This document shows positions 24,332-39,141 of a DNA stretch of 48,997 nucleotides, in pieces. The notes under the pieces were generated by a model. It had not been told where the DNA came from and ran no database searches. It saw only the letters and a list, made by a program, of their open reading frames with translations. The position numbers were made by a program, and so were the translations under genes. The first letter of the stretch is position 1; the number at the start of each line of letters is the position of its first letter. Source of the DNA: Clostridia bacterium (GTDB lineage Bacteria; Bacillota; Clostridia; Oscillospirales; CAG-272); the NCBI GenBank assembly GCA_017450965.1, contig JAFSSQ010000016.1:1-48997 (forward strand), in the 5' to 3' direction.

Positions 24332-24408
24332 GGAGGCATAGCTCAGTTGGTTAGAGTACTTGCTTGACATGCAAGGGGTCACAGGTCCGAGTCCTGTTGT
24401 CTCCACCA
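24332..24408 (+). tRNA. tRNA-Val (anticodon GAC)
   Basis: A complete 77-nt cloverleaf: acceptor GGAGGCA / TGTCTCC, D-arm with AGCTCAGTTGGTTAGAG, anticodon stem CTTGC/GCAAG around TTGACAT (anticodon GAC), T-arm with GGTCCGAGTCC (GGTCCGA in place of the usual GGTTCGA), and an encoded CCA at 24406-24408. Confidence 0.96.
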
Positions 24409-24493
24409 AAAATCCTGCGCTTCGGCGCGGGATTTTTCCTTATTCACTCTTCACTCTTCACTATTCCCTTATCCTTCCCCTCGCAGGATTTTT
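24408..24493. repeat. 86-bp segment bounded by 12-bp inverted repeats
   Basis: AAAAATCCTGCG at 24408-24419 recurs exactly inverted as CGCAGGATTTTT at 24482-24493. Between them lie the tRNA terminator and a pyrimidine-rich stretch with three near-identical 7-bp units (TTCACTC, TTCACTC, TTCACTA) around 24446-24466. This resembles a small decayed non-autonomous element inserted at the tRNA 3' end; no coding capacity. Confidence 0.45.
24409..24437 (+). terminator. Terminator of tRNA-Val
   Basis: AAAATCC and GCGC pair with GCGC and GGATTTTT around a TTCG tetraloop, directly behind the CCA end. Confidence 0.85.
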
Positions 24494-24527
24494 GGAAGTA
24501 AGAAGGGAAGTTCTGAAAGCAAAAACG

Positions 24528-38797: not shown

Positions 38798-38873
38798 GCG
38801 CCCTTAGCTCAGCGGATAGAGTGCCCGGCTACGAACCGGTAGGTCGAAGGTTCGAATCCTTTAGGGCGCGCCA
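38798..38873 (+). tRNA. tRNA-Arg (anticodon ACG)
   Basis: A complete 76-nt cloverleaf: acceptor GCGCCCT / AGGGCGC, D-arm TAGCTCAGCGGATAGAG, anticodon stem CCCGG/CCGG around CTACGAA (anticodon ACG, wobble A expected to be edited to inosine by TadA), T-arm GGTTCGAATCC, and an encoded CCA at 38871-38873. Confidence 0.96.
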
Positions 38874-38905
38874 CGAAAAAACCTCGCGTGAGCGAGGTTT
38901 TTTCG
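38874..38905 (+). terminator. Terminator of tRNA-Arg
   Basis: AAAAAACCTCGC, loop GTGA, GCGAGGTTTTTT, directly after the CCA end; symmetrical enough to work on both strands. Confidence 0.92.
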
Positions 38906-38910
38906 ATCCA

Positions 38911-39141
38911 AGCAGCCGACAGACGGCTTGGCATGGCATCACGGCGGGGCCGTGTATGGAATCAGCCGCTCTGCGGCTGTATGGCATCACGCGCCGCGCG
39001 CGTGTACGTCCTCTCCGTCGGCTTGATCGCATACATCCCTTCGGGATGATTCCATTCAGCCTTTTCGGGCTGATGCCATACCGCTCTGCGAGCGGATCAC
39101 ATACACGCCTGCGGCGTGATGATAGCGGGCTTTCGCCCGTA
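38911..39141. repeat. Array of about nine short hairpins in two opposed orientations
   Basis: Stems differ in sequence but each is self-complementary with a 3-nt loop in most. CACGGC/GCCGTG (38940-38954), CAGCCGC/GCGGCTG (38963-38979), CACGCGC/GCGCGTG (38988-39004), CATCCC/GGGATG (39034-39048), CAGCC/GGCTG (39057-39072), CCGCTC/GAGCGG (39081-39095), CACGCC/GGCGTG (39104-39118), GCGGGC/GCCCGT (39125-39140); a degenerate AGCCG/CGGCT lies at 38914-38928. Period is 21-25 bp within each block. The right block has flanks CATA before and GAT-N-C after; the left block has the exact reverse complement of these flanks, meeting at a core at about 39009-39029. It lies between the tRNA and GH127 terminators and has no coding potential I believe in. 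Confidence 0.8.

Follow-up and report, generated by a model that had tools for sequence, protein, structure and literature searches.

The locus analysed here raises the question of what a run of small hairpins, set between opposed copies of the same short words, represents in the space between a tRNA-Arg(ACG) gene and a convergent GH127 gene. The window (the whole stretch of 48,997 nucleotides that was analysed) belongs to a genome of 2.07 Mb, and the run covers its positions 38908-39139. The original prediction had placed the array between two terminators, with tRNA-Arg and GH127 as neighbours; both statements were correct, and the position seems to result from the element's landing immediately after a terminator. 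We consider it probable that the array represents a solo, ORF-less member of a family of small mobile elements that encode an S23 protein and are related to the rRNA intervening sequences.

Architecture of the array

The order of the array is hp0, three stem-loops with TATGGNAT words, a core, four stem-loops with words that are the reverse complement of TATGGNAT, and one further hairpin, so that the two arms face each other. The inner seven stem-loops are joined by the 8-bp words. All eight stem-loops of the original prediction were present, and each called stem folds by itself as called in single-hairpin folding, but the total is nine. The features, all within or directly ahead of the array, are the following:

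38798..38873, + strand: tRNA-Arg(ACG), the gene ahead of the element (ARAGORN, Rfam)
38874..38905, + strand: terminator hairpin GAAAAAACCTCGC/GCGAGGTTTTTTC; shared by sister species G057, where another array type follows it, and absent in sister species G376
38908-39139: array as a whole, between the tRNA-Arg(ACG) terminator and the convergent GH127 gene
38908..38931, + strand: hp0, CCAAGCAGCCGACAGACGGCTTGG, left end of the element; single fold; family consensus TATCCAAKCC..GGMTTGG
38932..38939, + strand: left word 1, CATGGCAT
38940..38954, + strand: hp1, CACGGC-GGG-GCCGTG; single fold
38955..38962, + strand: left word 2, TATGGAAT
38963..38979, + strand: hp2, CAGCCGC-TCT-GCGGCTG; single fold
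38980..38987, + strand: left word 3, TATGGCAT; across the family the third word is mostly NCAT
38988..39004, + strand: hp3, CACGCGC-CGC-GCGCGTG; single fold
39005..39025, + strand: half word and core, of which GTCGGCTTG (39017-39025) can pair with the 5' arm of hp0
39026..39033, - strand: right word 1, ATCGCATA
39034..39048, + strand: hp4, CATCCC-TTC-GGGATG; single fold
39049..39056, - strand: right word 2, ATTCCATT
39057..39072, + strand: hp5, CAGCCTTTTCGGGCTG; single fold
39073..39080, - strand: right word 3, ATGCCATA
39081..39095, + strand: hp6, CCGCTC-TGC-GAGCGG; single fold
39096..39103, - strand: right word 4, ATCACATA
39104..39118, + strand: hp7, CACGCC-TGC-GGCGTG; single fold; full copies elsewhere have the S23 ORF within tens of bp 3' of it
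39126..39139, + strand: extra hairpin, CGGGC-TTTC-GCCCG, with no word flank, membership unsure; single fold

The constant flanks predicted for the two blocks were recovered as the words TATGGAAT/TATGGCAT in the left arm and ATNCCATA in the right arm, in opposed orientation. The short core around which the blocks face each other is not a mere spacer: apart from one bulged base, GTCGGCTTG is the reverse complement of the hp0 5' arm, and throughout the family the two covary. All the parts of the element (terminator, hp0, left words, hp0-complementary core and right words) are present in the window copy. Both strands of 38905-39145 fold better than 200 of 200 dinucleotide shuffles (z -4.9 and -4.8), the predicted folds being a mixture of local hairpins and long-range pairs.

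Copies, structure and sites among relatives

Three arrays were found in the window's genome with blastn: the one described above and two other full ones, the second (C68) behind tRNA-Glu and the third (C67) behind a terminator after a tRNA-like 3' end. Array matches were also present in 14 of the 118 genomes of the family set, representing 13 genera, and the well-matched ones keep the same ordered architecture. The original prediction had made its case depend on such further copies, and since they occur both in this genome and in relatives, the array is not a product of chance. Scanning for the hp0 pattern gave at least 119 stretches in GTDB species genomes, and the family includes well over 100 loci of gut Clostridia. 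The matches listed (80) are by record title MAGs of Clostridia, Oscillospiraceae, Ruminococcaceae or Eubacteriales, many from ruminant guts. No match to the hp0 pattern was found in IMG/VR. Two unverified phage-labelled human gut scaffolds, L307 (MT835815) and L308 (MT835590), carry the array with S23; in one, a tRNA-Arg(ACG)-like gene precedes it.

Selection on structure, proposed from the window copy, is supported across the relatives. When segments were delimited by the words only and not by pairing, the outer 4 bp were perfectly paired in 69% of the 179 distinct cases and in 5% with shuffled partners, and the inner pairs 3-5 of the same segments in 66 and 4%, respectively. The arm sequence is free, with 69 different first five stem bases among the 179 segments. 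Hairpin length in the relatives ranges from 11 to 19 nt; spacing and phase on the double helix are therefore not kept, and the repeat period of 21-25 bp read originally from the window is not a fixed property. As to hp0 and core, 55 of 61 cores agree with their own hp0 at the variable base, and at least nine bases complementary to the own hp0 arm were present in 53 of 83 elements (shuffled mean 20, maximum 31). Left and right words are reverse complements, but their pairing is probably not the conserved trait, as the word variants, read by eye, do not covary between the arms. Related inserts of about 50-60 nt were seen in two species, in the hp3 loop of L002 (about 1587-1660) and in the hp1 loop of L032 (about 1660-1735), with the stems intact.

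Opposed short hairpins in extragenic, mobilised repeats are shared with REP/BIME elements and REPINs with RAYT, and the fixed flanking tetranucleotides would also fit mobilisation of a REP/BIME-like repeat by a Y1 (RAYT) transposase, a kinship considered from the beginning. Such an origin is nevertheless highly improbable, as the stem sequence is not conserved, the arms are always ordered 3+4 around a core that is complementary to hp0, and the linked gene is a different one, a four-helix-bundle S23. The Y1 transposase (PF01797) has no match in the window's genome, which is 98% complete, and is present in only three of eight array-bearing genomes, and the RAYT link was rejected.

In 47 of 83 sampled elements a tRNA gene called by ARAGORN ends 30-43 nt upstream, always on the same strand and representing altogether 12 isotypes, and the gap is the terminator. 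As this sample was picked on hp0 and not on tRNA, the link to tRNA genes is not built in. Other elements come after fragments of tRNA 3' ends, a 5S rRNA, or protein genes in the same direction. Different species have near-identical terminators (e.g. AAAATAAGACAGTCTTCGGACTGTCTTATTTT) behind their tRNAs for Val, Arg, Gln and Glu, which would fit a terminator that is itself part of the element; these recurrent terminators always precede the array in a sample that was itself chosen on the array. One exact terminator had a single match in the 118 genomes, which also precedes an array of another word type. Against its being part of the element, homology begins in most pairwise comparisons after the terminator, and copies at different tRNA loci share it mostly from the end of the T-run to near the S23 stop codon.

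The usual neighbour, a tRNA 3' end, together with the duplicated tRNA 3' ends upstream of the array at some loci, would agree with an attachment site or remnant of a tRNA-integrating island moved by a tyrosine recombinase. This is very unlikely, as the element starts behind the terminator and not inside the tRNA, is found also behind protein genes and a 5S rRNA, and has S23 as its linked gene. An integron-like gene cassette was considered for loci with two arrays 1.5-2.5 kb apart, and rejected: what lies upstream is a variety of genes, each of which simply stops ahead of the terminator.

Two further arrangements were observed at tRNA terminators. At 24408-24510, tRNA-Val, the window's other tRNA, has behind it a terminator and then the word array CCTTATTCACTCTTCACTCTTCACTATTC ... 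GGAAGTAAGAAGGGAAG, which is decayed and of a type that bears S23 in L291. In a second module the tRNA terminator is succeeded first by the T-arm in inverted copy and a hairpin (ACAGTCCGGTGGACTGT, for instance), and then by the tRNA 3' end repeated in direct orientation, with a new terminator behind it; this module was seen in L079 (3001-3440, reverse complement, tandem x2), L084 (1590-1716), L117, L083, L003 (586-692) and L244.

The orthologous tRNA-Arg locus is in three different states in the window species and its sister species G057 and G376, with upstream flanks 91 and 87% identical. The window has a TATGG-type array, G057 an AATGATG-type array and a remnant of a third type, and G376 no array and a different terminator, its flanks thus not being identical to an occupied site; the downstream gene also differs among the three. 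Because G057 has an array of different words and G376 none at the same site, comparison of these sequences indicates that the array was gained or exchanged here recently. Of the earlier proposal of a transposase-mobilised repeat, the mobilisation is supported, but no transposase or integrase was identified with the element, and no target-site duplication was established for these elements. At another orthologous locus (C67 and C43 of G057) the downstream flank is 92% identical over 1239 bp, and the two arrays, both TATG-type, differ by 120 gap positions and have 80% identity in the remainder. As regards compensating change between relatives, this pair shows wholesale turnover more than point compensation.

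The linked S23 gene and its words

In about 25 of 137 sampled elements the array is followed, at a distance within tens of bp and on the same strand, by an S23 ORF of some 117 codons or by what remains of one. The full copies are about 580 bp long, with the opposed hairpin-and-word array first and the S23 gene after it. The linked ORF matches PF05635 (E 2.4e-16) and TIGR02436 (E 4e-17), the '23S rRNA intervening sequence protein', a four-helix bundle, and the AlphaFold model of the protein (pLDDT 95) matches two S23 structures, 2rld and 2gsc, and also Avd from the diversity-generating retroelements (DGR; 4dwl, 8ub7). A resemblance of PF05635 to Avd has been described (PMC10053308). S23p was first met in rRNA intervening sequences and has no known function (PMC4990558), and a solved S23 relative from Xanthomonas is a homopentamer (cited in PMC4990558).

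S23 is present in 71 of the 118 genomes of the family set. An opposed array of exact 6-mers was detected by script in 33 of 47 S23 upstream regions. Shuffled sequences gave four such arrays in 940, and other windows taken from these loci 13 in 315, at least one of the 13 being ahead of a second S23 gene. Most of the remaining S23 upstream regions have arrays of other words when read by eye. The S23-associated words include GTGATATT, GTTATATT, GTGAAAT, AATGATG, GTGAAGT, TGATAT and TATATCAT. When the words were placed as labels on an IQ-TREE tree of 58 S23 proteins (nine of the 58 labels set by eye), the 13 labels required 12 changes, which is the minimum; the shuffled mean was 35.4 and none of 200 shuffles was as low. 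Several S23/word pairs occur within single genomes, so the match of clade and word does not reflect species history only. As S23 clade and word are co-inherited, the words are probably read by the cognate S23 protein.

The repeated words and the position between convergent terminators could also belong to a chromosomal protein-binding site (nucleoid protein, gyrase or insulator) fixed at the ends of transcription units. We find this very improbable, because the word type differs between species at one locus and tracks the S23 clade, spacing is variable, and pairing is kept though the stem sequence is free.

At the phylum level TIGR02436 was found in 42 of 249 genomes. Some of these S23 genes have short words on both sides, in forward orientation upstream and reversed downstream. 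In two cases, L273 and L280, the ORF is embedded in 23S rRNA gene sequence and stands between short words that are inverted relative to each other. About 15 of 28 S23 loci exceeded all 50 of their own shuffles in a 7-mer test; a fixed-threshold version was discarded as too permissive, as 24 of the 28 loci passed it but so did 31% of the shuffles. These flanking words, two cases being in 23S rRNA gene sequence, suggest that the rRNA intervening sequences and the tRNA-terminator elements may be branches of one class. In the open-licence PMC literature no paper was found tying S23 to such arrays. The 23S rRNA IVP is among the proteins named in a figure legend of a CRISPR-discovery survey (PMC10910872), and S23 word arrays might be taken for CRISPR arrays.

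The S23 genes of the window's genome have only 36-38% identity to the TATG-clade query and hence belong to other word types, among which are GTGAAGT and AATGATG. As no TATG-clade S23 was found in this genome, the window copy, with no S23 ORF adjoining, has probably been stranded or moved in trans, judging from the gene content.

A different role for S23, as binding partner and not mobility factor, would follow if the array were a structured non-coding RNA or a 3' trailer conserved for a host function and produced when transcription runs past the tRNA terminator or starts at an unseen promoter. The strong folding of both strands, the two exclusive, covarying pairings open to hp0 and core, and the place of Avd, the structural relative of S23, in a reverse-transcriptase ribonucleoprotein (8ub7) are consistent with this. 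We regard it as unlikely, since a terminator stands between tRNA and array in nearly every copy, the sister species have no array or another type at the same site, presence is patchy (14 of 118 genomes), and no Rfam family reaches the gathering threshold on the array.

A proposed terminator-proximal class of S23 elements

The known kind closest to the S23-encoding element preferred here is the S23 element of the 23S rRNA intervening sequences, which is likewise a small parasitic element with an S23/PF05635 ORF and a sporadic distribution. In the rRNA elements flanking complementary sequences form an extended stem (PMC4990558), with which the reverse-complementary left and right words of the window family may be comparable. 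The window family differs in standing behind terminators, mostly of tRNA genes (the window copy is not in an rRNA gene helix), in having its words separated by mini-hairpins and both arms upstream of the ORF, and in the many ORF-less copies. What is proposed here is a grouping of terminator-proximal, S23-linked opposed arrays, in which a cognate S23 within tens of bp is present in the fraction of elements given above, remnants included, and absent at the window copy, hence 'solo'. Such ORF-less relatives of a coding element with inverted arms resemble MITEs, but neither a transposase parent nor a target duplication was found for the window family. With DGRs the likeness is in the shared fold of S23 and Avd; RVT_1 is absent from 6 of 11 array-bearing or related genomes, the window's genome and G057 included, and a reverse transcriptase in the same genome was rejected as a requirement, being not needed there now.

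In the proposed mechanism an S23 ring would bind the 4-5 cognate words in one arm of the array, between which the hairpins would loop out as structured spacers. The bound form would be single-stranded, either RNA or DNA, given that the stems stay paired although their sequence and the spacing vary. The left and right arms, with the alternative pairing of hp0 and core, may then join the ends for copying into a new terminator-proximal site, and solo copies such as that of the window would have moved in trans or lost the gene.

More widely, and with a little less than even confidence, PF05635/S23 proteins could serve to read the words in a broad and so far undescribed class of mobile elements, each protein clade recognising a word of its own in opposed arrays. 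The rRNA intervening sequences would be its rRNA-targeting branch and the tRNA-terminator element another, moved by an as yet undescribed enzyme. The linkage to S23 accounts for one class of the extragenic hairpin arrays of gut Clostridia, which leave one tRNA site differently occupied between sister species, and the pairing of S23 clade and word gives S23p a candidate ligand, the binding of which is testable with non-cognate words of the same genome as controls.
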